A DNA stretch of 64,000 nucleotides. Origin: a virus. Both the position numbers and the translations under genes were made by a program. The notes under the pieces are model-generated. The model did no database searches. It was not told the DNA's origin and saw only the letters and a list, made by a program, of their open reading frames with translations. Shown here piece after piece: positions 8,306-61,199 of this stretch; position 1 is the stretch's first letter; every line of letters starts with the position of its first letter. The DNA is taken from IMG/VR virus record IMGVR_UViG_3300028197_001695, positions 54,006 to 118,005 of that record; one strand, written 5' to 3'.

Positions 8306-8323
8306 AAAATATTTTAATTGATA

Positions 8324-9051: not shown

Positions 9052-9373
9052 AGAACTATTAGAACTACATAAAGATACCTGCGATACTTGCAGGGATATT
9101 ATGAGGCGGAAAAATAACGATTATACTGGTGGAGAAAAATCCACTGATCCTTTCGCCAATTTTAACGCTGCGTCTGTGCTTGGCATTGATCCAGTACAAG
9201 GCTTACTACTTAGAGTAATCGATAAAATTCAAAGAATTAGGTCTTTTACAAACGATAAAGAATTAAAGGTAGCAAATGAAAGTGTTGAAGATGCTTGTGA
9301 TGATATCGTAAATTACGCGATATTAGCCAAGGCAATGCTTATGGAGCAAAGAAGCTGCCCAGAAATTAAGTAA
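9041..9373 (+). CDS. Nucleotide-modification-associated domain protein (DUF1599/Nmad1-like)
   Basis: A 110-residue helical protein with MRRKNNDYTGG near residue 21, FANFN, and a later DACDDIVNYAILAKAMLMEQ helix. The short N-terminal KNxDYxG motif plus the DDxxDxxNY helix is typical of DUF1599, a phage family linked to base modification or all-alpha NTP pyrophosphatases. It is the last gene before a strong terminator. Exact activity is unknown. Confidence 0.65.
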   Translation: MTTEELLELHKDTCDTCRDIMRRKNNDYTGGEKSTDPFANFNAASVLGIDPVQGLLLRVIDKIQRIRSFTNDKELKVANESVEDACDDIVNYAILAKAMLMEQRSCPEIK

Positions 9374-14708: not shown

Positions 14709-15013
14709 AAATAAAGTTCATCAAAGAACCTATTTCCATTGTAAGCTTTGTCATCAATCCAAAAGTCATATGCTGGTTTATCTGTCCTTAACTCAGTATA
14801 TTTGACTCCCCACTCTTCAAGCTGCTTTTTTGTAAACTCTAACCAATCTTTCCCCGAGTTCGCTCCTCTTGCAGTCCAATAGGTAATTCTATTACCACCA
14901 TCAAATAAGCTATTAAAATACTCAATACGAGTTCTCATAGGTCGAGCTAATTCATATTTGCCCCGACTATCTGTACAAATAGTCCCATCAATGTCTACAA
15001 TAAAAGTTCTCAT
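14705..15013 (-). CDS. HAD-family phosphatase (capsule-biosynthesis EcbF/BcbF type)
   Basis: A 102-residue minimal HAD protein. Motif I is VDIDGTIC (nucleophile Asp7 and Asp9), motif II is YWTARG, and motif IV is DFWIDDKA near the C-terminus. Length and WTARG match the small phosphatases of capsular polysaccharide clusters. It is coupled by four-base overlaps to the HldE-type transferase and kinase genes and probably removes a phosphate from their sugar-phosphate intermediate. It is too short to be a standard GmhB. Confidence 0.8.
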   Translation of the reverse strand: MRTFIVDIDGTICTDSRGKYELARPMRTRIEYFNSLFDGGNRITYWTARGANSGKDWLEFTKKQLEEWGVKYTELRTDKPAYDFWIDDKAYNGNRFFDELYF

Positions 15014-15486
15014 AATTTTTTAATTTTTCCAATAATTTTTGTCGCACTTATATCTTCAGAAAAAGGAATGAAACGCACCTCTGTTTGACCACAGGATGCC
15101 TTCTCAGCAGGGTTTAGGGTTGCAACGCTATAGTCTCCACCTTTATACCAACGAGAGGGCTTAAAGTGTCTTAGGTAGCCAGAAACCGTTGGTTCATTAA
15201 ACACAAAAACATAATCAACACACTCATTACAAGCCACAAGAAAGGCTCTCTGTTCTTGACTAATAATGGGTCTTTCTTGGCCTTTATTCTCCCTAACACT
15301 TTCATCTCCATTCACGCCAACAACTAAACTGTAATCACAAGGTAAATCTTCCTTGATTGATTTTAGAAGGTCTGCGTGACCTGCATGAAATAAGTCAAAG
15401 CAACCGTTTGTAAAAGCCATCTTTTCCATCCCCATCGAGAAGCGGTGCATGATCGTAGATGTATCAACTATTTTAGGGTGATTCAT
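15010..15486 (-). CDS. HldE-type (RfaE domain II) nucleotidyltransferase
   Basis: A 158-residue cytidylyltransferase-fold protein. TNGCFDLFHAGH at residues 26-37 contains the HxGH nucleotide-binding motif, followed by VGVNGDESVRENKG, RPI, RA..VA and VDYVFVFNE, and GGDY near residue 116. This is the order seen in the C-terminal domain of HldE (ADP-heptose synthase), which transfers AMP from ATP to heptose-1-phosphate. Here it is a separate gene next to a separate kinase. A related glycerol- or sugar-phosphate substrate cannot be excluded. Confidence 0.85.
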   Translation of the reverse strand: MNHPKIVDTSTIMHRFSMGMEKMAFTNGCFDLFHAGHADLLKSIKEDLPCDYSLVVGVNGDESVRENKGQERPIISQEQRAFLVACNECVDYVFVFNEPTVSGYLRHFKPSRWYKGGDYSVATLNPAEKASCGQTEVRFIPFSEDISATKIIGKIKKL

Positions 15487-16229
15487 ATTGTTGCTGTCCC
15501 AGCTTTACTGACAACAATGCTACAGCAAGTCTGAGCGTAGTCAATAGCTGAATCCATGTCTTGATTAAATAAATAATTAGTCGCGAAAGCAGTAAGGAAA
15601 GTATCTCCAGCACCACTCACATCCCTTACTTGAGCCACAGATTTTAAAGGGTATTTCTTTCCCCTGAACCTACACCCGTTACTCCCTAAAGTAACAATGA
15701 GGTTTTCCATCCCTATACCTTTAAATCCATTCTCCTTATATTCCTTTTCGTTAATTTTGATAAAATCAAACGAATTGGCCCATTTAGGGTTATATTTCTT
15801 TTTTGTATCTAAGAAAGACAATTGAGAGTTATCTGCAATATATTTTAAATCTCTGTCTGTCAGGTATCCCTTGTTATAATCAGAAACTATTACAGCGTCA
15901 TAAGACCACACGCTTGCTTCGCGCAACTTTAATTTATTAATCTCTTCATACTCATCTGAATCAACCCGCAAAAACATTTGATTAGAATTGGAGTCAATGT
16001 ATCTAACCTTCGCTCCAGTGCTTTGATTGCTTTTAATATCTACTTCTGCTTTTTCGCCTAAATTGTTAAGGCAAGCAAGAACATTTCTATGGACGTTTGA
16101 AGCCATACCCATGAAAGTAACTGAGTTCTCCTGCTTGAAAACAGGAACTGGAGCTTCTGGGCATAATCTATCAGCAGACCCATAAGTAAAAATATCTAAG
16201 CAGGACTCTCCGATAATTAATATTTTCAT
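15483..16229 (-). CDS. HldE-type (RfaE domain I) PfkB-family sugar kinase
   Basis: A 248-residue PfkB-fold kinase. The N-terminus MKILIIGESCLDIFTYG and CPEAPVPVFK are specific to RfaE domain I, and the C-terminal DVSGAGDTF holds the catalytic Asp and anion hole. E. coli HldE domain I has about 318 residues, so this is a compact version. The expected reaction is phosphorylation of D-glycero-D-manno-heptose 7-phosphate at C1. Four-base overlaps join it to the transferase and to the cupin gene, so all four are made from one message. Confidence 0.85.
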   Translation of the reverse strand: MKILIIGESCLDIFTYGSADRLCPEAPVPVFKQENSVTFMGMASNVHRNVLACLNNLGEKAEVDIKSNQSTGAKVRYIDSNSNQMFLRVDSDEYEEINKLKLREASVWSYDAVIVSDYNKGYLTDRDLKYIADNSQLSFLDTKKKYNPKWANSFDFIKINEKEYKENGFKGIGMENLIVTLGSNGCRFRGKKYPLKSVAQVRDVSGAGDTFLTAFATNYLFNQDMDSAIDYAQTCCSIVVSKAGTATI

Positions 16230-16600
16230 TTTTGTGAATCTCCTTTTTGGATTCTATAAGAATCATATTCAAAATGTTGAGTGCTAACTTCAAAAACTTT
16301 AGAATCCTCTAGAGCTATAAGCTTGTGAGGAATACATGGTCGCAAATGAACAGTGTCCCCCTCATTTAATTCAACAACCTTGTCTCCTGCATCACTCAAG
16401 TCATAATACTTCAAAAGCAATGCTCCTTCTATAACAGCCCAAGTTTCCTCTTTCTTGATATGATAATGCATAGAAAATTCAGCCCCCTTGTTGAACTTCA
16501 AAATCTTACCACAATACAAGTCATTATTTGTGATCCAAACTTCTTCCCCCCATCCTTTAGGGTGTTTTTGGACTTTTGAAAATACAGGCTCTAACTTCAT
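16226..16600 (-). CDS. Cupin protein, mannose-6-phosphate-isomerase type II-like
   Basis: A 124-residue single cupin domain. Metal ligands HYHIKKEE (His, His, Glu about residues 45-51) and the second cupin box with PCIPHKL are present. The sequence KGWGEEVWITNNDLYCGKIL resembles the C-terminal part of phosphomannose isomerase/GDP-mannose pyrophosphorylase and sugar-operon cupins. It begins the four-gene HldE-type operon. The reaction, if any, is likely sugar-phosphate isomerisation or epimerisation. Confidence 0.75.
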   Translation of the reverse strand: MKLEPVFSKVQKHPKGWGEEVWITNNDLYCGKILKFNKGAEFSMHYHIKKEETWAVIEGALLLKYYDLSDAGDKVVELNEGDTVHLRPCIPHKLIALEDSKVFEVSTQHFEYDSYRIQKGDSQK

Positions 16601-18858: not shown

Positions 18859-19845
18859 TTAACATCTAAATTTCAAAAAAACATGCTTAACCGCCATCCA
18901 CATGTCCAGATATTTATACTTAGCTAATCTACCCAGAAACACAGTATCCTTTTCTTCTCTAGCTAATCCATCATATCTTAAATACATCTCTTGGCCTTCT
19001 CCCCAAGGGATAGGATAGAATGGAATATCTCCTTCCTCCATACTTTTCGGGTATTCTCGGGTAATTATAGTCTCTCCTGAGTGATTGGAACTAAAATAAG
19101 AATGATCATACTGTCTAGTCCATTTATTTTTCTTACTGCATTCGTTGTAAACAAGTGTGTCTTGCTTATCCATTGTTGAGTAATGCTCTAGCTTTAAAGA
19201 CCTGTAAGGCAATTGCCCAAAACAATAATTAAAATACTGATCTATCCTACCTGTATAAATAACTTTATCGTAATCCTCCCCCCTCCATTCTTCCTGCCCC
19301 GCATTTAAAACAACTTCTATCCCATCTAACATTTTTTCGAACATTTTTGTGTATCCTTCTTTTGGTACACACTGATATTTTTGGCCTTCAAACCAAGTTG
19401 GACTTTCTGAGTTCTTGGTCTTTGGGATTCTGTTCGTGATTGTTTTAGGAATCTTCCTGAAATCTACTCCCCATTGTTTCTCACTGTAGTCTTTAAAAAT
19501 GTATTTTTTAATCTCTTCTTGAGAGAGTGTCCTGCCTATAGCTGCCTCACAACCTTTGTCGTGGTATGGTAGAGGAATATCCCCGATCTGGGTTTTGCCA
19601 ATTGGCTTATACTTCAGATCAATCCACTCTGTGTACCGTGATAGAAACTCAAAAACTTCTTCATCATCCGTATGGAAAATATGTGGGCCATACTTGTGGA
19701 AGTGAAGACCTTCAATGTCAACATCATAACAGTTACCCCCAATGTGATTACGGGATTCAAAAATTTTAACTTCATGGCCTTTATCTTTAAGTAAACGAGC
19801 AGAAGTTATCCCACTCAAACCACAACCAACAATAGCAAACTTCAT
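18859..19845 (-). CDS. glf: UDP-galactopyranose mutase
   Basis: A 328-residue flavoprotein that converts UDP-galactopyranose to UDP-galactofuranose. The FAD-binding GCGLSG (residues 7-12) and ESRNHIGGNCYD, YGPHIFHT, the EEIKKYIFKDYSEKQWG segment and the C-terminal FLGRLAKYKYLDM are all typical. Slightly short compared with the usual 370-390 residues. It probably uses product from the epimerase at 753-1583. It begins a five-gene glycan cluster and overlaps the GT2 gene by four bases. Confidence 0.93.
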   Translation of the reverse strand: MKFAIVGCGLSGITSARLLKDKGHEVKIFESRNHIGGNCYDVDIEGLHFHKYGPHIFHTDDEEVFEFLSRYTEWIDLKYKPIGKTQIGDIPLPYHDKGCEAAIGRTLSQEEIKKYIFKDYSEKQWGVDFRKIPKTITNRIPKTKNSESPTWFEGQKYQCVPKEGYTKMFEKMLDGIEVVLNAGQEEWRGEDYDKVIYTGRIDQYFNYCFGQLPYRSLKLEHYSTMDKQDTLVYNECSKKNKWTRQYDHSYFSSNHSGETIITREYPKSMEEGDIPFYPIPWGEGQEMYLRYDGLAREEKDTVFLGRLAKYKYLDMWMAVKHVFLKFRC

Positions 19846-20627
19846 ATGTTAAAATGTAATCTCATGCTCTTGCTAATTTCTTGAGAGTACTTCAAATTAG
19901 CTTTACCTGAGACTTGTTCATTATGAGAGCAGTTATATATGGCTGCTCTAAAATCAATATTCCCACCTTCATATCCTTTGTAATTAAAATATCTCCAAGA
20001 AAACGCATGAGATCCTATGACTTTTATTAAATAATATTTTTGTGTAGATCTAATTATACTACTCTGGGATGAACTTAGATTGATGTTTCTAAAATCGATT
20101 TCTTTTTTGAGCATACTTGCTTTAGTTATATTACATGTCCCGCATTTTCTATTAAAATCATTAATATACTTCAACGTATCATCAATACCCATCCTGATAC
20201 CCTTATCGATTCTCAAAAAATCTTTATTCGAATTATGAATAGTTCTAACTAGATCTCTATGTACGAAGTCATCCGCATCAACAAACATAACATAATTATC
20301 ATTGTTAACCTCACTTAAAGCTAAAATATACTTAGTGCCTTTATCTAATCTAGCTTGGTATATCCCATTTTCGACACTTACTTGAGTGCCTATCTGCCAA
20401 TTATTTGAAGGCGTAGGAGGCAACCAATTTACTTCTATAAACTTTACATTTTTAATCTTTTTGTTTTCTGTAAAGGTGTTTAATGTTTTATTCGAAACTA
20501 CTATTACTTCAAACCTATCATCAAGCTGACCACAAACCGAACCCAAAGTCTTTTCTAATAAATCCCAAGTATCATTATATGAATGACAGTTCTCGTAATG
20601 TTTAACAGCTATAATAAAAGTAACCAT
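19842..20627 (-). CDS. GT2-like glycosyltransferase
   Basis: A 261-residue GT-A-fold protein. The N-terminus FIIAVKHYENCHSYNDT and EVIVVSNK give the nucleotide-binding start, and VMFVDADDF (residues 113-121) is the metal-binding DxD. No membrane segments are present. It is next to UDP-galactopyranose mutase and could be a galactofuranosyltransferase, but this is only inferred from position. Confidence 0.75.
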   Translation of the reverse strand: MVTFIIAVKHYENCHSYNDTWDLLEKTLGSVCGQLDDRFEVIVVSNKTLNTFTENKKIKNVKFIEVNWLPPTPSNNWQIGTQVSVENGIYQARLDKGTKYILALSEVNNDNYVMFVDADDFVHRDLVRTIHNSNKDFLRIDKGIRMGIDDTLKYINDFNRKCGTCNITKASMLKKEIDFRNINLSSSQSSIIRSTQKYYLIKVIGSHAFSWRYFNYKGYEGGNIDFRAAIYNCSHNEQVSGKANLKYSQEISKSMRLHFNI

Positions 20628-21181
20628 TATTCCCCAAATTTATAACCAAAATATTCGATGTCTTTTGCATATTTTTCTGCAACAATTTGTTTTGTTTCTT
20701 CATCGTAGTATTCGGTGTAATGCTTATGTTTTGTTTTGTTTACGTGAGGAAGTTTTTGTTGCGGAACTCTAATTTTGTCGCAAATAGTATTAAAGTCTTC
20801 CTGAAGATTTTCAAACCTACCAATAAAATCGACTAAGCATTCGTCACCTTCAAATAACCAATTATGCTGTAATTTATGTTTCGCAGGAAATGGATTTAAT
20901 AAAAAATCCAAGAAGCTCAAGCCTTTAGCACTTTCTATATATCCATGTTGAGTATTATCTTTAACTCTAAAGAAATACTGAGACAGTAATTTATCCCAAG
21001 GATTACGTATAATAGAGAATTTGAAATAAGTATTAAATGCCTTAGGCTCATACTTTTTGTACCACCAAGCCCGGTGATGCTTCTGCGGAGGATTCTCAGC
21101 GTTCACTAGAAGCTTAGTAATACTAGTACCACCAGTTTTGTTTATGTGTATAAAGATAAACTTATTTTTGCGACACATCAT
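20627..21181 (-). CDS. Carbohydrate sulfotransferase-like protein (copy 2 of 3)
   Basis: A 184-residue protein with the PAPS loop FIHINKTGGTS (residues 10-20), the 3'-phosphate motif RNPWDKLLS (59-67) and the C-terminal signature LPHVNKTKHKHYTEYYDEE, ending YKFGE. The shortest of the three sulfotransferases. It is three bases from the next copy, suggesting tandem duplication and divergence. Sulfate acceptor unknown. Confidence 0.85.
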   Translation of the reverse strand: MMCRKNKFIFIHINKTGGTSITKLLVNAENPPQKHHRAWWYKKYEPKAFNTYFKFSIIRNPWDKLLSQYFFRVKDNTQHGYIESAKGLSFLDFLLNPFPAKHKLQHNWLFEGDECLVDFIGRFENLQEDFNTICDKIRVPQQKLPHVNKTKHKHYTEYYDEETKQIVAEKYAKDIEYFGYKFGE

Positions 21182-21184
21182 AAT

Positions 21185-21778
21185 TTATTCTCCAAATCTA
21201 TATTTAAATGTATCTATATCTTCTTCAAAGCTTCTCGCAATAATCTTAATTGATTGATCATCATAGTACTCAGTGTAATGAGCGTGTTTGGTTTTGTTCA
21301 CATGAGGAAGTTTTACTTTAGAATAATCAATTTGATCACATATTAAATCGAAATCATTTTGAAAATTTTCAAACCTGCCCACAAAATCTGTTTTAATTGA
21401 TCCATTTACAGTGATAAATTCCAATTGAGGATAAAAGAACACCCACTGCTGCCAAACCTCTTTTGCCAATAAAAAATCCTTGAATTCTGGATATTCTTTT
21501 TTAATCACTAATGTCTTGAGTCTATCATAAAAAGGTATCCCCCCTCTTTTAAGATATTCATAAGCACTTACAAACTTATCCCAAGGATTCCTAACAAACG
21601 CAAATTTAAATAAATCCTCTACCGCTAATTTAGGGCAATAGTCATTAGATTTAAAACCTAATTTAGATATTCCATAGTGGTCATGTGTTGTGATATTGAA
21701 AACCTTTTTAATAGATCTCCCTCCACATTTTGGGATATGAACAAAGACGAATTTATTTTTATGATCTACAAAAGGCAT
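21185..21778 (-). CDS. Carbohydrate sulfotransferase-like protein (copy 3 of 3)
   Basis: A 197-residue protein with FVHIPKCGGRS (12-22), RNPWDKFVS (63-71) and the shared C-terminal LPHVNKTKHAHYTEYYDD and YRFGE. Its middle region differs from the other two, which implies a different acceptor. It starts inside the end of the Fringe-like gene (20-base overlap). Confidence 0.85.
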   Translation of the reverse strand: MPFVDHKNKFVFVHIPKCGGRSIKKVFNITTHDHYGISKLGFKSNDYCPKLAVEDLFKFAFVRNPWDKFVSAYEYLKRGGIPFYDRLKTLVIKKEYPEFKDFLLAKEVWQQWVFFYPQLEFITVNGSIKTDFVGRFENFQNDFDLICDQIDYSKVKLPHVNKTKHAHYTEYYDDQSIKIIARSFEEDIDTFKYRFGE

Positions 21779-44428: not shown

Positions 44429-46725
44429 CTAAGAAAACCCATTTCATCTAAATTTATTTTAGAGGCGTTTCCCGTCAACTCTTGACATATAAACTTATTA
44501 ATCTGGTCCTCGAAACGATCTTGGAAATCAACTAGGTTCTTAGAAGAACGAGCGAATTTCTTTAGAAAACTTAGTGTAAATAATACCTCTATATCGCTCA
44601 ATCTCAAATCTTCATTGATCTTCTGTATCTTATGATAAAGAATTCTAAATATGTCCTTTTTGCGAGCTTCATTTAATACTAAATTACAGTCAACTAGAGA
44701 TAATAATTCTTTAAAAATAGACGAGGTTGGAGACTCCTTGTCAGAGTTAAACCCCATTGATGAAGTGTCCTCTACTCCGCTAGTCACAAAAATTTTGACA
44801 TTAGAAAAGTCAGCTATATCTCCATTAGCCATTTGCAACTTCCCGTCCTTTAGTATTTGAGCAAATAAACTCTTAACAGACAAATGTAGCTTGTGGAAAT
44901 CGTCAATAATAATGACACTATTAGGATAGATATTAATCTTCTCACATAAAGAAGTGTTATTCATTATCTCTGGTAAGATTTTAAACTTAGCGAACTCATC
45001 TGAAAAATGAACTCCGCTGTAGCTTAAGATATTCACGCCACTCTTTTCCAGAGAGTCCTTCAAAGTCGAACAGAAAAAACTTTTGCCACTAGACTCAACT
45101 CCTGTAATACAATAAATGCTGGGAGCTGACCCTTTTTTATATATTCCATAATTAGATAGAGATATGGATTCGATAAGAGAATCAATAATTCTATTATTGC
45201 CTATAAACTTTTTCTTTAAACTCTCAGAGAGATCAGATAAAATTTTTGGCTTCCTCAGAGGGTTCTCCTTCTTTGAGAAGAAATCTTTAAGATGCTTCAT
45301 CCTAACTTCTGGAACTTCATCCTCCTTGTCTTCAGACCAGTCTGATAATTTTTCTGTTACAAATGATAATAATGATTCTGTCGAGGTTATATCTACATCG
45401 TTATCTTTTATTTGTTCTTGCAACTCTTTAAATGAAGTATCATTGCCCCAGTGGGAAACTTTCGCTTGCGCTCCACAATGATCAATTACGTCAATTGCTT
45501 TGTCTGGATAAAATTTATTTGGAAGATATTTTTCACAAAAAACAATAACATTGTCAATAAAGTTTTGAGTATAATTAACATTATGGAAGTCTTCGTAATA
45601 AGAGGTTATAGTAGGTAAAATTTCCTTCATCTGAAATTTAGAAGGCTCTTTGATAATAACCCTTTCAAAACGACGATCTAAAGCAGAGTCTTTTTTAATA
45701 GTGTTTGTATACTCGTTTATTGTAGTGGCTCCAATACAACTAATTGTGCCACGAGCAAGCTCTGGCTTGAGTATATTAGAAGCTTCTAGGGAGTTTTCTG
45801 TAGTTCCTCCAGCACCAACAAGAGTATGGACCTCGTCTATGAATAGAATAATATTTTCATACTTCTTAACTTCATCTACAAACTTCTCCAGCCTCTCTTC
45901 AAACTGACCACGATACTGTGTTCCAGCGACCATACTAGACAAACTAAGAGAGTAGATAACTTTATTCGCGATAAGCTCTGGAGCTTCACCATTTACAATT
46001 TTGGAAGCTAGACCCTCAATCAAAGAAGTTTTACCAGTTCCCGCTGGTCCCACTAAAATTGCGTTTGGCTTCTTCTTTCTGCAAAGAATAGTCGCTATCT
46101 CTGATATTTTGTCATCAAAGTCTACTATTTTATCAAATTCATGACGGGAGGCTTTTAAGTTTAAGTTTTCTGCGAACTGATCAAGGATTGGGTTTTCATC
46201 AAACATCCCAATCCATTTGCCAACTATATCCATAGAAATATCATCAGCAAAAGAATACTCTGATTCTCCCTCTGGTGCTACTTCTTCTTCGTCTTTTATA
46301 AAACGAGTTATAGACTCCACCATTAGATCTCTATCTTGTTCCTCAAGAACCCCAGAGAAAGCCTTCGGAGTGAACCCTTCACTCAAGAAACAAAGCAAAA
46401 TAGCTTCTGTGCTAACGTAATCTAATTCAAACAGCTCCTTCTGAATAAACTTACATTCATTTAGTAATTTATTTAATTTAGTGGAATATTTAGTAGAAAC
46501 AATTTTGTTAGACTTCTTCTTCTCGATGACCTTTTTAGATGCAATAAACAAAGCTTCCCTACAAAAAGATTCTTCAAGAAATTTCTCACAAGACAAGCTT
46601 AGGTCACTAATAAATGAATGAAAAAAAACATCTATATCAACCTTATTTCTCCCAAGGAATTCGTTTAAATCTTGAGCACCCTTAAGGATGCACTTTAATT
46701 GTGGAGTAAGTGGTAAGTCGTTCAT
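44425..46725 (-). CDS. ClpA/ClpB-like double AAA+ ATPase (766 aa)
   Basis: The first AAA+ module has Walker A GPAGTGKT (226-233), Walker B IILFIDEVH at about 291-299, the pore loop region GTQYRGQFEERL and sensor GATTINEY with Arg finger DRRFERV, all as in ClpA/ClpB D1. The second, diverged module has Walker A GVESSGKS at about 521-528 and Walker B VIIIDDFH. The N-terminal domain is not the standard Clp_N. No ClpP-binding loop was spotted. It overlaps the polymerase gene by four bases, which is unusual. It may remodel replication or host proteins. Confidence 0.82.
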   Translation of the reverse strand: MNDLPLTPQLKCILKGAQDLNEFLGRNKVDIDVFFHSFISDLSLSCEKFLEESFCREALFIASKKVIEKKKSNKIVSTKYSTKLNKLLNECKFIQKELFELDYVSTEAILLCFLSEGFTPKAFSGVLEEQDRDLMVESITRFIKDEEEVAPEGESEYSFADDISMDIVGKWIGMFDENPILDQFAENLNLKASRHEFDKIVDFDDKISEIATILCRKKKPNAILVGPAGTGKTSLIEGLASKIVNGEAPELIANKVIYSLSLSSMVAGTQYRGQFEERLEKFVDEVKKYENIILFIDEVHTLVGAGGTTENSLEASNILKPELARGTISCIGATTINEYTNTIKKDSALDRRFERVIIKEPSKFQMKEILPTITSYYEDFHNVNYTQNFIDNVIVFCEKYLPNKFYPDKAIDVIDHCGAQAKVSHWGNDTSFKELQEQIKDNDVDITSTESLLSFVTEKLSDWSEDKEDEVPEVRMKHLKDFFSKKENPLRKPKILSDLSESLKKKFIGNNRIIDSLIESISLSNYGIYKKGSAPSIYCITGVESSGKSFFCSTLKDSLEKSGVNILSYSGVHFSDEFAKFKILPEIMNNTSLCEKINIYPNSVIIIDDFHKLHLSVKSLFAQILKDGKLQMANGDIADFSNVKIFVTSGVEDTSSMGFNSDKESPTSSIFKELLSLVDCNLVLNEARKKDIFRILYHKIQKINEDLRLSDIEVLFTLSFLKKFARSSKNLVDFQDRFEDQINKFICQELTGNASKINLDEMGFLS

Positions 46726-49283
46726 TTTTTATTCAGATCTCTAAGCTTCATCATGATTTTAGTATCAATCACCCTAGCCGAAGTTATAAAACTACTACCA
46801 CGGCCTTTACTAGCATTCAAGATCAAAATGCACTCTTTCGATATTTTATATTGTGAAAGGAAGTCTGAAAGAGTATTAGATCTAGAATTATCCATCATTA
46901 AAAATTTAGATGAGCCTGTATTGTCTGAAACATTAATCATCATATACTTATTACCGCTTTGAGAGATATTTGTGAAGAAATCTTTTACTTGGCAAGCTAC
47001 CTTGAAACTCGTTCTTTCTGAGATCTCATCTATTTCTCTTAGACTACTCATGGAACCGAATTCATCTTCAAAGCAGTCTCTCAAATCGAAAGAGTAACTA
47101 TAACCCAATAAAGTATTTTCATACCACCAATTACAAAACTTCTGGAATGGCTTATTCTTGTCGAAGATCTCTTTGTAATTCTTAAAATTTTTCTTAAAGG
47201 TATTAAACCTAGATTCTTTCATTATTGGGCGACCATCATCAGCAATAGCGTTCACCCTTATCACTTCCGATATTGCTTTTAAAACATCATCACCAAACCT
47301 CTCTTTAAATAGATTAAAATTTCTCTTCTCCCTGTCTGTCAATATGTTGAAAGCTTGAGCCTCTAAAACTAACCTGCCTCTTTTTTCTGTAGACTCGTCC
47401 ATAGATCCAGCTTGAATCAAAGCAGCTAGCACTGAGATATTAATTCCACAATTTTTAGCTGCCATGAATACATCATATTTGCTTTCAAACCCGTCTGACC
47501 CTTTGAAAGATAAAAGACCTTCTTTAGATTTAGAAGAAATACCTTTGATTCCATTAAGGCCATATCTAATGTTGTCACCTTCAATAGAAAAGTCCATTTT
47601 TGATTTAAATAGGCTTGGAGGTAATAATCGAACACCAAAGTAATCTAACTCTTGATGGACAGAAGCAACAACTTCAAGAGGCTCTGGGTCAAACTCAGAA
47701 GACTCAAGGACAGACAAGAAGAACTCTCTAGGATATTTGTACTTCAAATAAACTGTCTTAGCTGCCAATTCAGCATAAGCGAAACTGTGAGACTTGTTGA
47801 ATGAGTAGTCAGCAGAAGCTTGTAGGGCAGTCCAGTAGAAATCACTGATCTGACTATCTAAACCTAGAGCTTGTGCAGCATCATAAATTCTATCTTTCCA
47901 CTTCGGCATTTCCTCAACCTTCTTCTTACCAACAATGCGACGAAGAGTTTCTGCCTCTTCTAGAGTCAAACCGAAAACCTTGTTAGCAATCTGCATCAAC
48001 TGCTCTTGATACAAGATAACGTTTTTAGACCAAGATAGGATTTCATCTAGCTCTTTATGAAGGTTGCTTGATTGAGGGGCTTGTTTCTGTCGGACATATT
48101 CGTCAACAAATTGTAAAGCCCCCGGTCTAGCAAGAGCTACAACGTCAGAAAGTTCATTGAGATTGTCAGGCTTTACGTCTTGGCAAACCCTGAAGTTTGT
48201 ATCTGCTGAAATCTGGAAGAGACCTTCTGGATGATTATAGGTTTGAAGCTTCTCATATATGAATGGGTCATTAGGGTCTATTTCATCTATGCCAATGCCA
48301 ATCTTGTCGCAAGTCCTGTGAGCGATTGTTAATGTCCTAAGACCAAGAATATCGAACTTAACCATGAGGTCAGCAACATCGTGCATATTGTAACCTGTTA
48401 CTAAGTCTCCATCTTTAGTTTTTTGAAGAGGCACAACATCTCCTATTGATTGAGAGCAAATAGCAATGCCAGATGGATGGACTCCTGTGTTTTTAATTAG
48501 ATTCTCAATCTTCTTCGCATTAATAAAAGTCCTACTATGTTTTTTAGCCCAATTGTCGAGCTTCTCATTCTCTTCTCTCGCATTATCTAAAGAAGATACT
48601 TTGCCATGAAGTTTCGGAATCATGTCACTAACTGAATTAGCTTGGTCCTCTTTGGCTTCATCAAAATACTTGGTAGCCTCTCTAATGCAAAGCTTCGAAC
48701 TAAAAGTGTTGAAGGTTAAAATTTTTGCTGTCCTGCCCTTATGTTTTTCTTCAATGTATTGAATGACTCTCTGTCTTTGCTCATAACTGATATCTGAGTC
48801 AACATCAGGAAGTAGACTGCCAACAAGAAACTCTTTATTTCGTTTGTCGTAAACTTTTTTAGCACGACTCTTTGATACAAAACGTTCAAAGAACAAATTG
48901 TGAGGAATGGGATCAATATTAGTAACCCTAAGCAAATACAAAACTAAAGATCCAGCAGCAGAACCACGACCTGCTCCGGTGGGAATACTATTTTCATGGC
49001 AAAAGTTTAAAACATCCCAATTTAACAAAATATAATCTGTAAATCCAAGCTCTTCAAAAGTCTCTAGCTCTTGTTTGGCACGATCAAAATATTCTTTTTT
49101 ATTCTCATACTTTGTAATTCCTTTGTCCCGCAATCCTTTGCGGGTAAGCTCATACATAATTTCTTTAGTGGAGCTTTCTTCGCCAAGCCCAATACTCCTC
49201 AATACAGCTTCGCTGACAGAAGTCTTAGGTAATTCAACGCCAATAGGCTCACAATCGTCGTAAACAGAAAAATCTTTAAACAT
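46722..49283 (-). CDS. DNA polymerase III alpha-like catalytic subunit (C-family), lacking PHP domain
   Basis: An 853-residue C-family polymerase core. Palm motifs: GAGRGSAAGSLVLYLLRVTN, then LLPDVDSDI with the two catalytic Asp, then KFDILGLRTLT with the third. GVHPSGIAI, EAETLRRIVGKKK and SFNKSHSFAYAELA are all conserved. The N-terminal PHP part is missing and is made by a separate gene (49884-50585); the normal protein has about 1160 residues. It synthesises phage DNA; proofreading would come from the neighbouring DEDDh exonuclease. Confidence 0.93.
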   Translation of the reverse strand: MFKDFSVYDDCEPIGVELPKTSVSEAVLRSIGLGEESSTKEIMYELTRKGLRDKGITKYENKKEYFDRAKQELETFEELGFTDYILLNWDVLNFCHENSIPTGAGRGSAAGSLVLYLLRVTNIDPIPHNLFFERFVSKSRAKKVYDKRNKEFLVGSLLPDVDSDISYEQRQRVIQYIEEKHKGRTAKILTFNTFSSKLCIREATKYFDEAKEDQANSVSDMIPKLHGKVSSLDNAREENEKLDNWAKKHSRTFINAKKIENLIKNTGVHPSGIAICSQSIGDVVPLQKTKDGDLVTGYNMHDVADLMVKFDILGLRTLTIAHRTCDKIGIGIDEIDPNDPFIYEKLQTYNHPEGLFQISADTNFRVCQDVKPDNLNELSDVVALARPGALQFVDEYVRQKQAPQSSNLHKELDEILSWSKNVILYQEQLMQIANKVFGLTLEEAETLRRIVGKKKVEEMPKWKDRIYDAAQALGLDSQISDFYWTALQASADYSFNKSHSFAYAELAAKTVYLKYKYPREFFLSVLESSEFDPEPLEVVASVHQELDYFGVRLLPPSLFKSKMDFSIEGDNIRYGLNGIKGISSKSKEGLLSFKGSDGFESKYDVFMAAKNCGINISVLAALIQAGSMDESTEKRGRLVLEAQAFNILTDREKRNFNLFKERFGDDVLKAISEVIRVNAIADDGRPIMKESRFNTFKKNFKNYKEIFDKNKPFQKFCNWWYENTLLGYSYSFDLRDCFEDEFGSMSSLREIDEISERTSFKVACQVKDFFTNISQSGNKYMMINVSDNTGSSKFLMMDNSRSNTLSDFLSQYKISKECILILNASKGRGSSFITSARVIDTKIMMKLRDLNKK

Positions 49284-54439: not shown

Positions 54440-54843
54440 ATTACGTCTAACTCGTTTAGTAGATCTTCATTCAGAGTATCTTTCTCTAGTATTCTTACAA
54501 GTCTAATTTTGTTAATATCGCAAAAATATTCCTTTTTCTCGTCTCTTTGCAATTGTGACAGAAAATTCTGCCTTGAGTTTGAGTGAAAAAATTTATTAAA
54601 TTTGTAATGCTGGTTGCCATCAACTTCTATTGCAAGTTTTTTATTCGCGTTATAAAAGTCTATAGTCATTCTAGTTCCAAGAACAGGGAACTCTTCAAAA
54701 ACTACATCTGAAATCCAGTGTGAGTATAAAAGGTCTTTTACTTTTTTTTGGATCTTACTCCGACACTTTTTATCCCAGTCAATTAAATATTTCGATGAGT
54801 TTTTTAGCTTCTGTTCACGACCAGTTGTCGTAAGAAAAATCAT
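54436..54843 (-). CDS. Vsr/DUF559-like PD-(D/E)XK endonuclease
   Basis: A 135-residue protein. RMTIDFYNANKKLAIEVDGNQHY contains the D...ExDGxQH active-site pattern of Vsr/DUF559-type nucleases, followed by FLSQLQRDEKKEYFC, in which the Arg-Asp-x2-Lys is typical. KIRLVRILEKD is the closing strand. Phage members cut branched or mismatched DNA, or act as resolvases; the substrate here is unknown. It is coupled to the recombinase gene by four bases. Confidence 0.75.
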   Translation of the reverse strand: MIFLTTTGREQKLKNSSKYLIDWDKKCRSKIQKKVKDLLYSHWISDVVFEEFPVLGTRMTIDFYNANKKLAIEVDGNQHYKFNKFFHSNSRQNFLSQLQRDEKKEYFCDINKIRLVRILEKDTLNEDLLNELDVI

Positions 54844-55967
54844 ACAAAAATATTCTCAGCAATAAATAAGTGCATCCCCTTAGTGATTTCCTCACTGTTC
54901 TCTAAAAGGTCATACAGAGCTTTCATCCCCTGATACTTCTCTTGAACTTCGACTCCCCTATCAGCAAGATACTTGATAAGTTCAGCATCAATCTTAAACC
55001 AAGAAGCAGACTTCTCAATAAAGTTCCACATTAAAAGCATCTCAATGATCTCACGCTCAATCCAAATAGACTTACCATCAGATCGACCATGCTTGATTGG
55101 GTAACGAATACGCATACCAGTACTTTCATTCGTAGACTTCTGAATATGAACTTTCGCGTAATGACCTATAATAGAATTCTCTGGGCTTGGCCTTGCCTTT
55201 TGATCTTGTAGAATTAGATCAGATTGGTTTCTTCTTTCGAAGTTTATAATCCAGTCTGGATAGTGAAGAGCTGCATTGCCACCGCTAGAATTAGTTTGGT
55301 TGTTTGGATCACTAGGAGCATATTGATTAGTCTTTATAGTTGACCGAACCTGAGAGACCATAATACACATATGACCAAATTTACCCATTCCAAGACTAAC
55401 TCGCTTTAAGAAATCTGAAGTAAGAGATGCACCTGCTGCAACTTTTGCTGCATCACTGGTAGTCTTCTCTAGATCAGATTTAGGAAGCAAGCCATCCATA
55501 CTGTCGATGACAATGCAAAATTTTTCTCTATCTGGATTATTTCTTAGTAATTCTCTAAGACCATCAAAAACTGTGTCGTAAATGTGACACTCCCAAACAA
55601 GGCAAGTGCCTAAATCCCAGTCTTCTGGGTCAGTCACAAATTTCAATCCAGAACGCTTTTGGATGTCTGCTGATAAACGACCCTCCGCTTTGATATAAAG
55701 ACCCTTGGTCTTCTCTACCGTCTCAAGCATATTCTTCATAACATGAAGAGCTTCATTTGTTTTACCACCCTCGTTACAACCAATGAAACGCTGGAGTCCA
55801 GCTCCAAGACCTCCACCCACAAACTGATCTAGAATTAGGGAGCCAGTCGAAACTATGTAAGGCTTTGCAGTCTCTTCATAGTTGTAGTGGAATTCTTTAT
55901 TACTCTTAAAAAACTTCGACATAAATTGCGAAGTCCCAACTTTTTCTTTTGCACTTTTCTTACTCAT
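54840..55967 (-). CDS. RecA/UvsX-like recombinase
   Basis: A 375-residue recombinase. The Walker A is GCNEGGKT (63-70), the glutamate switch region IKAEGRLSAD follows, Walker B is FCIVIDSMDGL at about 152-162, and VSQVRSTI is the L1 start. It is closer to phage UvsX-type proteins than to bacterial RecA (a Glu-Gly pair in place of S-S in the P-loop). It pairs homologous DNA in recombination-dependent replication and repair. It overlaps the zinc-ribbon gene by eight bases. Confidence 0.88.
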   Translation of the reverse strand: MSKKSAKEKVGTSQFMSKFFKSNKEFHYNYEETAKPYIVSTGSLILDQFVGGGLGAGLQRFIGCNEGGKTNEALHVMKNMLETVEKTKGLYIKAEGRLSADIQKRSGLKFVTDPEDWDLGTCLVWECHIYDTVFDGLRELLRNNPDREKFCIVIDSMDGLLPKSDLEKTTSDAAKVAAGASLTSDFLKRVSLGMGKFGHMCIMVSQVRSTIKTNQYAPSDPNNQTNSSGGNAALHYPDWIINFERRNQSDLILQDQKARPSPENSIIGHYAKVHIQKSTNESTGMRIRYPIKHGRSDGKSIWIEREIIEMLLMWNFIEKSASWFKIDAELIKYLADRGVEVQEKYQGMKALYDLLENSEEITKGMHLFIAENIFV

Positions 55968-56415: not shown

Positions 56416-57444
56416 CTAACATGAATTAATATCGTTTGCAAGCATTTTTCTCACAAGACCAATAAAGTTTGTCTTAGGCTTCCAGCCCAAGTCCCTCCTA
56501 GCATCTGAAGAGTCTCCCCAAAGCACCTCTACTTCAGCAGGTCTATAGAATTCTGGGTTAATCTGCATCAAAATCCTACCTTCATGCACATACTGCTCAT
56601 CTACACCCTTACCAACCCACTTGCACTTTTCTACAGCAAAGCCAGCAAAATTAAACGCTTGTTCTACAAATTCCCTAATAGTATGAGTTTCATTTGAAGA
56701 AAGGACGTACTCTCTAGGAGCTTCTTGATTCAACATTAACCAAACACCTTCTACAAAGTCTTCCGCATCACTCCAATCTCTTTTCGAATCAATATTCCCC
56801 AACTCAAGAGGTTTAAAATCATTTAAAATATACTCATTTTTAATGCGAGCCACATTCTTTGTTATCTTACGAGTGACGAACTCTTCTCCACGACGAGTAC
56901 CTTCATGATTAAACAACCAACCTTGAATAGCGTAAAGGTCGTAAGAATCTCTCCATACTTTTACCATGTGCCTCGCACTAGCCTTAGAAACACCGTAGGG
57001 GCTTCTTGGGCGCAAAGGGTGAAGCTCTGACTGGGGAGAGTATAAAACGTCTCCAAACTCTTCTGAAGAGCCAGCATTGTAGTAGCGGCAATTAGGACAA
57101 TGTTTCCTTATAGCCTCTAGTTGATAAAGAACAGCCATTGCGTTTGTCTCCATATGATTAACTGGCATCTTCCAACTCACACCAACAAAAGAATTAGCAG
57201 CGAAATTGATGAAGTAATCTGGCTTGTGCTCTGCTATCACCAGCTCTGTATTAGTTTGATCAGCGACATCTAAGTCAATAAGTTTGAATCGAGGATTGTC
57301 TATTAGATGAGCAATATTATCGTGGTTTTTTACACTTAATCTGCGGACACCAGCTACAATAGTATGCTCAGTATTCTTTAAGAGATAATCTGCCATAAAA
57401 CTACCGTCTTGACCTGTTACCCCTGTAATAATAATCTTTTTCAT
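56416..57444 (-). CDS. gmd: GDP-mannose 4,6-dehydratase
   Basis: A 342-residue extended SDR that makes GDP-4-keto-6-deoxymannose. TGVTGQDGSFMADYLL is the Rossmann start. NFAANSFVGVSW, AGSSEEFGD, SPYGVSKASARH (Tyr-x3-Lys) and NHEGTRRGEEFVTRK are specific to GMD. Typical length is 340-370. No GDP-fucose or GDP-rhamnose synthase was found nearby, so the 4-keto sugar may be used by the adjacent genes or a host enzyme. ATG 57444 is used because an upstream one at 57474 would add a non-conserved stretch. Confidence 0.93.
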   Translation of the reverse strand: MKKIIITGVTGQDGSFMADYLLKNTEHTIVAGVRRLSVKNHDNIAHLIDNPRFKLIDLDVADQTNTELVIAEHKPDYFINFAANSFVGVSWKMPVNHMETNAMAVLYQLEAIRKHCPNCRYYNAGSSEEFGDVLYSPQSELHPLRPRSPYGVSKASARHMVKVWRDSYDLYAIQGWLFNHEGTRRGEEFVTRKITKNVARIKNEYILNDFKPLELGNIDSKRDWSDAEDFVEGVWLMLNQEAPREYVLSSNETHTIREFVEQAFNFAGFAVEKCKWVGKGVDEQYVHEGRILMQINPEFYRPAEVEVLWGDSSDARRDLGWKPKTNFIGLVRKMLANDINSC

Positions 57445-57854
57445 ATGATATAGTCGCTGCAAACCCCAAAGCAATCGTAATATTTAGACCGCCAGTTTCT
57501 ATCATTATCTACTATAATAGATTTATCGACAACAGGTTTATTGGGGAATGTCCAAATAAAACCTTTAGACGTTAAGGTGTAACTATCAGAATCATGCCAA
57601 AAATAATTTACATTGCTTGAGCAATACTGTAGAGCTTCTGCATTTTTACAATGAACCCAAAGACCTTCTTGATCTAGAAACGCAGGATGAATAATATACT
57701 CTGGGATATCATGACCCAGAAAAAGTTTACCAAATTCGTACCACAGATCTATTTCACAATCATACCCTAAACTTAGAACTTTTTTTATTTGTTCTGGATG
57801 GTTTTCTAAATCAGATGGGCCATTTAGATTACCTCTATGGGAAATAACCTTCAT
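57441..57854 (-). CDS. Short glycerophosphodiester phosphodiesterase-like protein
   Basis: A 137-residue protein with HRGNLNG near the N-terminus, CEIDLWYEFGKLFLGHD (Glu-Asp pair and His) and a Trp-rich end. These match the first metal-binding motifs of GDPD/PI-PLC TIM-barrel enzymes, but the protein is about half the usual length. Such shortened GDPD-like proteins occur in polysaccharide clusters of bacteria and large phages, where they may transfer a phosphodiester or glycerophosphate group. It overlaps GMD and cupin genes by one to four bases. Confidence 0.7.
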   Translation of the reverse strand: MKVISHRGNLNGPSDLENHPEQIKKVLSLGYDCEIDLWYEFGKLFLGHDIPEYIIHPAFLDQEGLWVHCKNAEALQYCSSNVNYFWHDSDSYTLTSKGFIWTFPNKPVVDKSIIVDNDRNWRSKYYDCFGVCSDYII

Positions 57855-58177
57855 TATCCTACTAAATACTTATCCGCAGTATTCGAAGAAGTCCTTATCA
57901 CAATCAAATGAGTATCTTCGTGAAATTTAGACTCTGATACCATATAAGGATCAATCACGAAAACCTCCCCTTCTATAAACCTTTCTCCATTTATCTCTAC
58001 ATCACCCTTTGTGACAACATTAATCTCTGTGCTTAATTTATGATAATGGTTCTGAGTTTCACAACCCTTATCATACTTATGGTAGCCAACTTCAAAGTCT
58101 TGAGTTTTAAAAATGGAAGGCTCAAAGTTTCCAACCAACCACCCATTAACCATATCACCCAACTTATATTTTTTCAT
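57854..58177 (-). CDS. Cupin protein in sugar operon
   Basis: A 107-residue single cupin with NHYHKLSTEINVV (His, His, Glu) and GEVFVIDPYMVSE with HEDTHLI near the C-terminus. It resembles sugar-nucleotide-operon cupins of unknown role. It is 14 bases inside the end of the fusion gene and shares one base with the GDPD-like gene. ATG 58177 is chosen; one at 58222 would overlap the upstream gene further. Confidence 0.68.
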   Translation of the reverse strand: MKKYKLGDMVNGWLVGNFEPSIFKTQDFEVGYHKYDKGCETQNHYHKLSTEINVVTKGDVEINGERFIEGEVFVIDPYMVSESKFHEDTHLIVIRTSSNTADKYLVG

Positions 58178-59339
58178 TGAATTCAGCTTTAGTGATTCTC
58201 GGGATATGCCTACCCCCGTCAAAAGAGGTTCTTTCCCAGATATCTACCATGTTTGAAAGCATGCTTGCATCAACAACTCTAGATGGTACTGAAAAATAAT
58301 TAGCACAATTATGTTTTATCGAATATTCTGCTGCGTATTCGTCGTAAACAACAGCGGCTCTTACACCTTTATTTTTACTACCCGCTATATTGACTCCTTG
58401 CCCAGTCCTACAAAAAGCTATAACATGATCACTGAACCCTCTATTTAGAGCATCTATAGCTTGCCCAACATAATCATTGTAATCACAATCTTTATCGACA
58501 AAAGTTCCATAATCAACGTAACGGAGACCTCTTTCAGTTAAGATTTTACAAGCTTCATTTTTTAAGTCAAACCCAGAATGGTCAGCGCATATTGCTATTG
58601 GCTTATCTCCAAATTTAACTAAGGAGTGAGTTAAATAAAACTCTAATTCTTCTGGAGTCCCCATCAAGTGCATCTTATTAACCTCATTTATATTTACCTT
58701 AGCCCCATCTTTAATCATAAGGTTATAAAGAGGACAGATGTAAAACTCTCCACGAGTCATAATTTCCTGATCAATCATTTGTTCTGCATACTTCACGAAT
58801 GAAGCCCCACTACCAAATGTGTAAACGCCAACCGCCGCATTCTCACTGATAACTTCTTTTTCCGCTGTTTTTGTAACGAAACCCTCGTCATTTAATTTGG
58901 CATAACTATAACCATTATTATTACTCTTGAATGTAAGAATCGTTCCATCTACATCTGGTTCTATATCAGTTGGATCAAAAAAATCTTCGAAGTAAACATC
59001 CAATGTGTAAATCATTAATGGATTATCATTATTTATATAATTCTTCGCCATTAAACAAGTTTCTACCGAACCTCTTGTTACATGATCTAGAATAATTAAC
59101 TTTATGTCTTCTCCATACTTTTGTTTTAAAATCTTATCTAAAGAGTAATCATTAACGTGGTCTCTCCGCAAACAAAAAATTAAATTACACCGATCTTTAT
59201 TTAAAATTGAACTTAAACTAAGATCAATCATTTGAGTATCACCAACCATAATTAATTGTTTAGGCATCACGTAACCCTCATCAACAAATCTTTGCCCCCT
59301 CCCGGCGATAGGTATTAATATGTTTGTTTTATTTTTCAT
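58164..59339 (-). CDS. Fusion: sugar nucleotidyltransferase + RpiB-family isomerase
   Basis: A 391-residue two-domain protein. Residues 1-235 are a GT-A-type nucleotidyltransferase: NILIPIAGRGQRF, VMPKQLI, YTLDVYFED (metal Asp) and GTPEELEFYL. Residues 245-391 are RpiB/LacAB-type isomerase: AICADHSGFDLK (252-257), DYGT, FCRTGQGVNIAGSKNKGVRAAV, KHNCAN (342-347) and GGRHIPRI. The active-site CGTG is CRTG here. The fusion suggests that an aldose/ketose-phosphate interconversion feeds straight into nucleotide activation. I do not recall this pairing in a phage. Confidence 0.8.
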   Translation of the reverse strand: MKNKTNILIPIAGRGQRFVDEGYVMPKQLIMVGDTQMIDLSLSSILNKDRCNLIFCLRRDHVNDYSLDKILKQKYGEDIKLIILDHVTRGSVETCLMAKNYINNDNPLMIYTLDVYFEDFFDPTDIEPDVDGTILTFKSNNNGYSYAKLNDEGFVTKTAEKEVISENAAVGVYTFGSGASFVKYAEQMIDQEIMTRGEFYICPLYNLMIKDGAKVNINEVNKMHLMGTPEELEFYLTHSLVKFGDKPIAICADHSGFDLKNEACKILTERGLRYVDYGTFVDKDCDYNDYVGQAIDALNRGFSDHVIAFCRTGQGVNIAGSKNKGVRAAVVYDEYAAEYSIKHNCANYFSVPSRVVDASMLSNMVDIWERTSFDGGRHIPRITKAEFNEKI

Positions 59340-60021
59340 TTTTTGATTTGATTAGATTAAATGTTTTTTTATGGCTGTCACTTATTATTTTTTCTAAACT
59401 AACACCTTTGCTATCAATTAAATAACTTATAACAGCGGCTGCAAACATATCGCCCGCTCCAAGTATATTCGCATCAGTTAAAGTTTTTTCAATTTCCGTT
59501 TCAAAAAAATCTCCGTTTTTTCTGTAGAAATAACTCCCGTGAGAGTGGTGAACCAAAATGTCCCCTTTGACAAGTTTTTTCAATTCTTCCACAGGCAACC
59601 ATAAATCGTCATCAGAAATAAATAACAAATCCACATACTTTAATAACTCAACGTCTTTTAAGCTTAAACCAGCGCAAATATCCGCAGATACAAATTTACT
59701 TTTGGTAGCAACCTCTGAGATAAATCCAGTCTCCTTTAATTGATTTAAATATAAAACATGAGACCAGTCTGAATTATGTATGAATGGAATTCTTTTCTTC
59801 AAAGAAAGAGATGCTTTAGAAGATCTTCTACTCTTATCCGTATCAACGTAAATTAAAGCTTCTCCTATTTCAGTAGGCTCTACATGAACTTTATGATTAC
59901 ACACTTGTATCAGAGCATCCCAAACATTAGCTAATCCACCAACAGTTTCATGGATCTTGATCCCATCGAAAATAGTATCATGTGTCAGATGGCCATATAA
60001 GCTTATTTCAAAATTTTTCAT
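59329..60021 (-). CDS. PfkB-family sugar kinase, compact (230 aa)
   Basis: A 230-residue ribokinase-fold protein. GGLANVWDAL (about 28-37) is the substrate-binding start, and the C-terminal ANILGAGDMFAAAVIS holds the catalytic Asp of GAGD. It is about 80 residues shorter than ribokinase or HldE domain I. Overlapping genes on both sides make a nucleotidyltransferase-isomerase, the presumed next steps, so it should phosphorylate the same sugar. Confidence 0.78.
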   Translation of the reverse strand: MKNFEISLYGHLTHDTIFDGIKIHETVGGLANVWDALIQVCNHKVHVEPTEIGEALIYVDTDKSRRSSKASLSLKKRIPFIHNSDWSHVLYLNQLKETGFISEVATKSKFVSADICAGLSLKDVELLKYVDLLFISDDDLWLPVEELKKLVKGDILVHHSHGSYFYRKNGDFFETEIEKTLTDANILGAGDMFAAAVISYLIDSKGVSLEKIISDSHKKTFNLIKSKNEK

Positions 60022-60532
60022 CTTTATCTAAAGCTAAGAAATCATTTAGTAAGAATTTTTTTACAAGACCCCTAGAAGAGCATACGTTATACAATTCGTC
60101 TAAAACATTTTCTCCCCCTTTGCTATGAAGGGTATTCTGATTACCACAAATATCTCTTATCTCGGAAACAGCGTCTTTAGGGCAAAATTTATAAGAAACT
60201 CTTTCCATTATGGGAGCGTCAAATATATCATCTCCTATAAAACACATTGAATCTTCTGTAACGGAGTATTTATTCTTAAATTCAGATATAAAAGAAGACT
60301 TGCATTTATCGCGAGCATAATAAAAATCTAAATTTCTATTTAAAGCGATAGACTCATTGATATTCTTATCTCCTGATAAAAATATAACCCTACAAGAAGA
60401 AGCTTTAAACTTTTTAATTGCAGAAAAATCCTTGTCACAAAAGGTCTTATACTTAGCTAACCCAGTGTCATCATAATACTTTTTACCGTCAGTCAACACT
60501 CCGTCTACATCCAATATCAAAAGCTTTATCAT
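60008..60532 (-). CDS. KdsC-like HAD phosphatase
   Basis: A 174-residue HAD phosphatase of the KdsC/8-phosphatase type: LLILDVDGVLTDGKKYYDDTG (motif I, within it DVDGVLTDG), FLSGDKN, KCSSFISEF region and IGDDIFDAPIME (motif IV), PKDAV. KdsC removes the phosphate from Kdo-8-phosphate; related proteins act on Neu5Ac-9-P and others. ATG 60532 leaves one base to the upstream stop; an ATG at 60565 is not used. Confidence 0.82.
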   Translation of the reverse strand: MIKLLILDVDGVLTDGKKYYDDTGLAKYKTFCDKDFSAIKKFKASSCRVIFLSGDKNINESIALNRNLDFYYARDKCKSSFISEFKNKYSVTEDSMCFIGDDIFDAPIMERVSYKFCPKDAVSEIRDICGNQNTLHSKGGENVLDELYNVCSSRGLVKKFLLNDFLALDKDEKF

Positions 60533-60533
60533 T

Positions 60534-61199
60534 TTATCTTTTTGGGAAGGCTTCATTGCCATCAATTGTTATATGAGCGTTTTCAGACATGTCGCAATTA
60601 TACCTAATGCAATGGATATCTAAAGAGTCCTTTACTAAGTCTACATTAATAAAACTCATCTTGTCAACCATTTCCTCATAAGTCCACCCGTTTTTTTTCA
60701 TTATGTTATAACATAATTGTTTTTCTGGTTGATTAAAATCAGGACCAACTTGACGGTAAGACCATAAATCTAAAGCGTAATCAAGCCCACTAAATGTAAC
60801 GAAATCATGCATCTCATGTATGCTTGGTTTGTAATTGAGATACGAGCATAAAGAATCCTCCTTTATCATTTTTTCAAAAGCCATACGGATAACTCCTTTT
60901 TGATTTGTCCATAATAAATCACCTCTAACTTTAACTATCCAAGGTTTATTTATTGCACGAATACCTGCCTCAGAACTCATGCATTGTAAATTTATATTAT
61001 TATAACCCTTAAACGATGGGGTTGTATTTAAAATAATAGGGACTTGCTTGGCAACCTCTTTTATATTCTCTATTGGCTCATTATCCCAAGTAGACCAAAC
61101 GTAAGAAAAGCTCTGGTCTAAGTTAGATAAAACCCTTTCGTAGTTATTCGTTGGTCCTTGGATAACTATTCCGACATCATTTAAATCAAAGTCCCTCAT
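60534..61199 (-). CDS. WavE-like LPS biosynthesis protein
   Basis: A 221-residue protein with VGIVIQGPTNNYERVL, YVWSTWDNE, NINLQCMSSEAGIRAI and WIVKVRGDLLWTNQ, the blocks of WavE (Vibrio LPS core) and related GT-A-fold proteins of unknown donor. It is coupled to the phosphatase and GT2 genes by one to four bases. It probably transfers a sugar in the second glycan operon. Confidence 0.75.
   Translation of the reverse strand: MRDFDLNDVGIVIQGPTNNYERVLSNLDQSFSYVWSTWDNEPIENIKEVAKQVPIILNTTPSFKGYNNINLQCMSSEAGIRAINKPWIVKVRGDLLWTNQKGVIRMAFEKMIKEDSLCSYLNYKPSIHEMHDFVTFSGLDYALDLWSYRQVGPDFNQPEKQLCYNIMKKNGWTYEEMVDKMSFINVDLVKDSLDIHCIRYNCDMSENAHITIDGNEAFPKR

Follow-up and report, generated by a model that had tools for sequence, protein, structure and literature searches.

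A viral fusion of a sugar nucleotidyltransferase with an RpiB-type isomerase, in a conserved gene set that may encode a compact sugar-activating pathway

Introduction

RpiB-type isomerases are known to act on C4-C6 substrates. The structure of the related LacAB enzyme assigns isomerisation to a cysteine, ring opening to a histidine and phosphate binding to arginine residues; directly after the cysteine stands a glycine with a presumed structural role, and a nearby position, equivalent to Gln314 of the protein described here, lines the pocket (PMC3755991). Genes termed rpiB were reported to be enriched in a marine viral metagenome, where they lie on cyanophage scaffolds and have been read as feeding nucleotide synthesis, with rpiB preferred by phages over rpiA for its shorter length (PMC4022391). 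Elsewhere, rpiB is listed among pentose-phosphate genes (PMC3877843).

The sugar-activating pathway that most resembles the system reported below is the ADP-heptose route, in which sedoheptulose-7-phosphate is converted to heptose-7-phosphate, heptose-1,7-bisphosphate, heptose-1-phosphate and finally ADP-heptose by GmhA, HldE and GmhB (PMC10948575). Its four steps employ a SIS-type isomerase, a PfkB-fold kinase, a HAD phosphatase (GmhB) and a nucleotidyltransferase of cytidylyltransferase-like fold, with steps 2 and 4 fused in HldE.

Here, we analyze a viral gene that fuses an RpiB-type isomerase to a nucleotidyltransferase (NT). It lies in a window of 64,000 nucleotides, positions 54,006 to 118,005 of IMG/VR record IMGVR_UViG_3300028197_001695. 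We consider it fairly probable that the fusion is a bifunctional enzyme that both opens and completes a nucleotide-sugar pathway encoded by the phage.

Results and discussion

One reading frame encodes two enzyme domains

A preliminary description of this DNA, made from the sequence alone, had read the 391-residue product as a GT-A NT joined to an RpiB/LacAB isomerase (Table 1). The domain search that it proposed bears this out: within one frame, PF00483 matches residues 12-179 with 26.1 bits (cut-off 21.2) and PF02502 matches residues 248-384 with 122.4 bits (cut-off 24.7). In an AlphaFold2 model of the fusion (mean pLDDT 89.8, pTM 0.83), each half finds its own fold matches, 4evw and RmlA for the NT and RpiB for the isomerase (TM-score 0.92 to 1o1x, normalised by target), and none of the best 50 structure matches was a chain described with both enzymes. 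Among solved structures the NT half is nearest to 4evw from V. cholerae (24% identity in the fold alignment), which is a nucleoside-diphosphate-sugar pyrophosphorylase by annotation only and, in contrast to the NT half, is unfused. The isomerase half scores above the cut-off of TIGR00689 (109.6 versus 88.3), below that of the RpiB equivalog TIGR01120 (102.3 versus 138.65) and far below those of all LacA/LacB equivalogs (e.g., 59.8 versus 234). In PHROGs, the fusion falls into phrog_3980, a family of unknown function.

Table 1. Window features, numbered from the first nucleotide of the window.
Feature	Position	Strand	Evidence or remark
NT-RpiB fusion, 391 aa	58164..59339	(-)	single open frame; two Pfam domains above cut-off
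NT half, residues 1-240	58620..59339	(-)	PF00483; best fold match 4evw
RpiB/LacAB isomerase half, residues 248-384	58188..58598	(-)	PF02502; fold match 1o1x
CRTGQG motif, residues 310-315	58395..58412	(-)	Cys310, Arg311 for Gly, Gln314
Mini-PfkB sugar kinase, 230 aa	59329..60021	(-)	Foldseek 5.8e-12 to ribokinase-family kinase 5ysq
KdsC-like HAD phosphatase	60008..60565	(-)	TIGR01670 2.3e-23; family-conserved start is ATG at 60532
WavE-like glycan gene, upstream	60534..61199	(-)	PF07507 8.4e-05, below cut-off
Small cupin	57854..58222	(-)	phrog_24762 3.5e-35; likely start ATG at 58177
GDPD-like (HRGN) small protein	57441..57854	(-)	phrog_34507 1.7e-23
GDP-mannose 4,6-dehydratase-like SDR	56416..57474	(-)	PF16363 3.4e-102; likely start ATG at 57444
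Split, shortened HldE (region)	15010-16600	(-)	with WbuC-like cupin
HldE-like kinase	15483-16229	(-)	rfaE_dom_I 1e-34
HldE-like adenylyltransferase	15010-15486	(-)	rfaE_dom_II 3.8e-38
UDP-galactopyranose mutase	18859-19845		PF03275; near sulfotransferase-like genes
Sulfotransferase-like genes	3618-4241, 20627-21181, 21185-21778		by eye; FxHIPKCGG or HINKTGG start
DNA polymerase	46722-49283		only distant matches among cultured phages
RecA/UvsX-like	54840-55967		only distant matches among cultured phages

The fusion is a genuine viral gene

Scans of viral contigs returned 71 different full-length fusions, and the sequence in the window is identical in three IMG/VR contigs. Median dN/dS is ~0.05 in the NT half and in the RpiB half (113 pairs), which shows that purifying selection acts strongly on each. 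These three observations rule out a frameshift or assembly join of two genes, an error that the preliminary description had named as one possible undoing. Cultured carriers are the Synechococcus phages Bellamy and SynMITS9220M01, whose fusions are ~50% identical to that of the window. Both genomes label the gene 'phosphatase' (7998-9155 in each of L017 and L018), with which its domains disagree.

Among cellular genomes, a selective pattern scan that took one genome from each of 84,980 species detected full-length fusions on just two contigs. The first (L024) agrees in length and range with an IMG/VR viral record (L097); the second has the same cassette and a fusion 89% identical to the window's. 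L023 and L024 are short contigs binned as Flavobacteriaceae and Crocinitomicaceae MAGs and bear the phage cassette; they are probably phage contigs inside these MAGs. Two profile searches, one over 289 and the other over 295 genomes, had NT and RpiB on separate genes among the matches listed, the second of these contigs excepted. Within the genomes searched, which included no group sample of cyanobacteria, the fusion is nearly restricted to viruses, though a rare cellular copy may exist. The proposed search for it in other phages and bacteria thus finds it widespread in the former, with two cellular-set occurrences on viral-looking contigs. Literature searches on an NT-RpiB fusion or its pathway found nothing. 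The preliminary description knew of no named phage pathway with it; no known product turned up for this widespread viral fusion. The fusion and its parts list are new to the sources searched, while the pathway logic is already known.

The isomerase half keeps its catalytic residues and has altered pocket residues

Six RpiB-half positions, D253, H254, C310, H343, R377 and R381, are invariant in the 71 fusions, and comparison with the LacAB structure (PMC3755991) places the isomerisation cysteine, the ring-opening histidine and the phosphate-binding arginines among them. The viral domain shares these residues and its fold with RpiB and LacAB isomerases (PF02502) but differs in forming the C-terminal half of a larger chain and in three local changes: replacement of the glycine after the cysteine, a glutamine at the pocket position, and HNC for HND/HNN (HND/HNN/HNA across RpiB and LacAB). 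In the window, the motif reads C310-R311-T312-G313-Q314-G315.

The preliminary description had noted a change from CGTG to CRTG. Arginine occupies the glycine position in 71/71 fusions found by NT- or isomerase-based searches. A kinase-fetched sample contained CR(T/S)GQG in 55/62 fusions and C(Y/C)TGQA in 7/62, the latter with the catalytic residues kept; a motif count that includes loci fetched by the CRTGQG pattern itself is circular and is not relied on here. Thus the replacement of glycine stands, with no fusion in either sample retaining it, whereas invariance of Arg311 was rejected on account of the Tyr and Cys variants. Of 46 cellular RpiB sequences, four of them without a recognised motif, none had arginine after the cysteine of a recognised motif; none had HNC, and two had the pocket glutamine. 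In a tree with these 46, the viral RpiB halves group together as a single, long-branched clade (SH-aLRT 100).

Could the half have become a non-catalytic regulatory or oligomerisation domain? The glycine beside the catalytic cysteine is replaced in all sampled fusions, and the half has apparently been lost twice (see below), both of which would suit such a role. We nonetheless hold it highly improbable: the catalytic Asp, His, Cys and His and both arginines are invariant in the 71 fusions and are kept in the Tyr/Cys variants, which rules out a lost active site, and dN/dS equals that of the NT half.

In the NT half, R17, K27, D114, E160 and K161 are likewise invariant in the 71 fusions. The second metal-binding Asp usual in RmlA-type transferases was not recognisable by eye, which counts against the pathway proposed here. 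The NCBIfam model rfaE_dom_II did not match this half.

A fixed gene set surrounds the fusion

The order common to the loci is kdsC-like, mini-pfkB, fusion, cupin and usually the GDPD-like gene. pfkB adjoins the fusion in 77/78 testable loci, kdsC is close upstream in 72/74, the cupin adjoins in 77/81 and the GDPD-like gene is present in 72/75. Kinase and fusion genes most commonly overlap by 4 bases (50 loci), and by 11 bases in the window. Over 41 loci, pairwise distances in the NT half track those in the RpiB half (correlation 0.96), and the distances of either half track those of kinase and phosphatase (0.86-0.89); these values are descriptive only because the loci include related phages.

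That the next genes encode a PfkB kinase and a KdsC-like phosphatase, as described before, agrees with our analysis. The kinase scores 19.3 against the Pfam PfkB cut-off of 25.8, which a homologue (locus L005) exceeds with 26.3; its predicted fold is PfkB/ribokinase (Foldseek E 5.8e-12, probability 1.00), and G188, G190 and D191 of the GAGD-type motif (GxGD) are invariant. It falls ~70 residues short of the usual PfkB length, a point against the pathway reading, and matched no NCBIfam model, the rfaE domain models included. Among cultured phages, this mini-PfkB occurs only in the two with the fusion. The phosphatase stays below the cut-offs of the TIGR01670 subfamily (82.8 versus 106.95) and the KdsC equivalog PRK09484 (69.8 versus 208); its best solved relatives are KdsC-type, and the HAD motif residues D19, D21, K89, D112 and D113 are invariant.

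The cupin homologues give weak Cupin_2 matches. The HRGN protein resembles a shortened GDPD by eye only, and a Pfam search with it gave no match; homologues of phrog_34507 occur at most loci, and in phages as well as bacteria the gene accompanies NT and cupin. The SDR, which scores below the TIGR01472 cut-off, is not adjacent at most other loci.

Some loci do without the isomerase, which counts against the pathway reading. Of 80 loci found through the kinase, 18 showed no fusion; in some of these the contig or fetched stretch breaks off inside or ahead of the NT gene, and in most of the others an unfused NT follows the kinase. In a quick NT tree with SH-aLRT support only, fused and kinase-linked unfused NTs make up one viral clade (99), within which the unfused ones fall in two separate groups. 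Together with the single RpiB clade, this would fit one fusion event followed by two losses of the RpiB half. One cluster (L345) holds an unfused NT and an NT-RpiB fusion together. That some phages do without the half makes it probable that hosts, too, form its product; ribose-5-phosphate fits, and so would a heptose phosphate.

Sixteen loci, including L064, L130, L167, L198, L215, L326, L336, L345, L347, L352, L354 and L366, have a transketolase split into two proteins (about 213 + 160 aa) close to the cassette, and its presence fits a pentose-phosphate-type input. The first such loci hinted that it strictly replaces RpiB, an idea ruled out by the nine that have transketolase and fusion beside the seven RpiB-less ones.

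A candidate pathway from ketose phosphate to NDP-sugar

The cassette enzymes together probably make an activated sugar. We infer the individual reactions, their substrate and, by likeness to ADP-heptose synthesis, their order. The RpiB half would convert a ketose phosphate to an aldose phosphate; the mini-PfkB would phosphorylate the anomeric carbon, giving an aldose-1,x-bisphosphate; the KdsC-like phosphatase would take off the other phosphate to leave aldose-1-phosphate; and the NT half would join this to a nucleotide, forming an NDP-sugar that nearby glycosyltransferases would put on the host surface or the virion. The cupin and the GDPD-like protein lie outside this scheme, a point against it, and the WavE-like gene is a possible user of the product.

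The preliminary description had suggested a compact pathway that isomerises, phosphorylates and activates an uncommon sugar. The constant gene order, the parallel divergence of the genes and the conservation of active-site residues support a compact sugar-activating pathway well, and an uncommon sugar is plausible; what the three steps leave out is the phosphatase, probably a required step by the logic of ADP-heptose synthesis. From that route the cassette keeps the PfkB fold only. Its isomerase is RpiB-type rather than SIS-type, its phosphatase KdsC-like rather than GmhB, and its NT of GT-A type; where HldE fuses steps 2 and 4, the viral chain fuses 1 and 4, with a separate, small kinase.

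The leading substrate candidates, unranked, are pentose-5-phosphate and sedoheptulose-7-phosphate. With the latter, the same chemistry would have the RpiB half replace GmhA and yield an NDP-heptose, possibly of other stereochemistry. Transketolase, found near some cassettes, can make sedoheptulose-7-phosphate; no SIS_2/GmhA domain was found in the 118-kb record, and the pocket residues are changed. We still regard this version as doubtful, as known RpiB-type enzymes act on C4-C6 substrates and the window's separate split HldE could make a second heptose route redundant, despite the full analogy that it would offer with the heptose route (PMC10948575). With that HldE present, the cassette more likely serves another sugar; judged from these genes, the phage would have two kinase/transferase sugar routes.

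We give very little credence to a Kdo- or nonulosonate-like route, in which the isomerase would make arabinose-5-phosphate, the KdsC-like enzyme would act on an ulosonate phosphate and the NT would activate the product. The phosphatase is indeed closest to the KdsC/YrbI and KDN-9-phosphatase families, but none of the conserved cassette genes was recognised as a KdsA- or NeuB-type synthase, the NT matches PF00483 and not a CMP-Kdo synthetase family, and the PfkB kinase is left without a place.

A broader possibility, put forward tentatively, is that viruses built a nucleotide-sugar pathway of their own with no cellular counterpart, making an undescribed donor by means of an isomerase whose specificity is new and which is joined to the pathway's final enzyme.

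Bearing on published cyanophage rpiB genes

Wherever RpiB was found in a named cyanophage, it was part of the NT-RpiB fusion; the remaining RpiB matches in that phage collection come from records that lack annotation and bear the label Listeria phage, faecal phage or uncultured phage. An ordinary pentose-phosphate enzyme that turns ribulose-5-phosphate into ribose-5-phosphate for nucleotides and is merely joined to an NT would agree with the published reading (PMC4022391, PMC3877843) and with the superfamily catalytic residues. Against it, every named cyanophage with RpiB has it fused to a sugar NT, the gene sits in a fixed sugar cassette, the altered pocket residues are absent from 46 cellular RpiB sequences save for glutamine in two, the halves form a separate single clade, and the score lies below the RpiB equivalog cut-off; we judge this explanation unlikely. 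The named-cyanophage fusions are a lead against the reading in PMC4022391, short of a refutation. Viral 'RpiB' genes that have been taken to serve nucleotide synthesis therefore deserve re-examination: the rpiB that metagenome surveys tally as a pentose-phosphate gene is, in each named cyanophage case found, half of a predicted sugar-activating enzyme. The bifunctional pathway enzyme favoured here supplies a function hypothesis for the unannotated phrog_3980 together with a fixed gene set across many aquatic phages, and the cultured Bellamy and SynMITS9220M01 allow direct tests.

Related fusions and other features of the window

The NT family also occurs in another fusion, with a beta-phosphoglucomutase-family HAD as partner (L019 7344-8717, L020 7344-8729, L026 7353-8723, L028 7344-8711). 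The carriers of this fusion are cyanophages S-CAM9 and B23, a Pelagibacteraceae genome and a Poseidoniales genome, and NT relatives outside the viral clade are fused to or adjoin such a HAD. These proteins resemble the NT-RpiB fusion in their related NT and in gene company, which often includes the GDPD-like gene and at times the cupin, but differ in the HAD partner, the lack of RpiB and a separate branch in the NT tree. In either arrangement the partner could supply sugar-1-phosphate, through a mutase there and through kinase and phosphatase here.

Judged by its DNA polymerase and RecA/UvsX-like genes (Table 1), the phage would be one without a close cultured relative, unlike the cyanophages that share its cassette. 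Elsewhere in the window, three genes look sulfotransferase-like by eye, and a UDP-galactopyranose mutase gene lies near genes of this kind.
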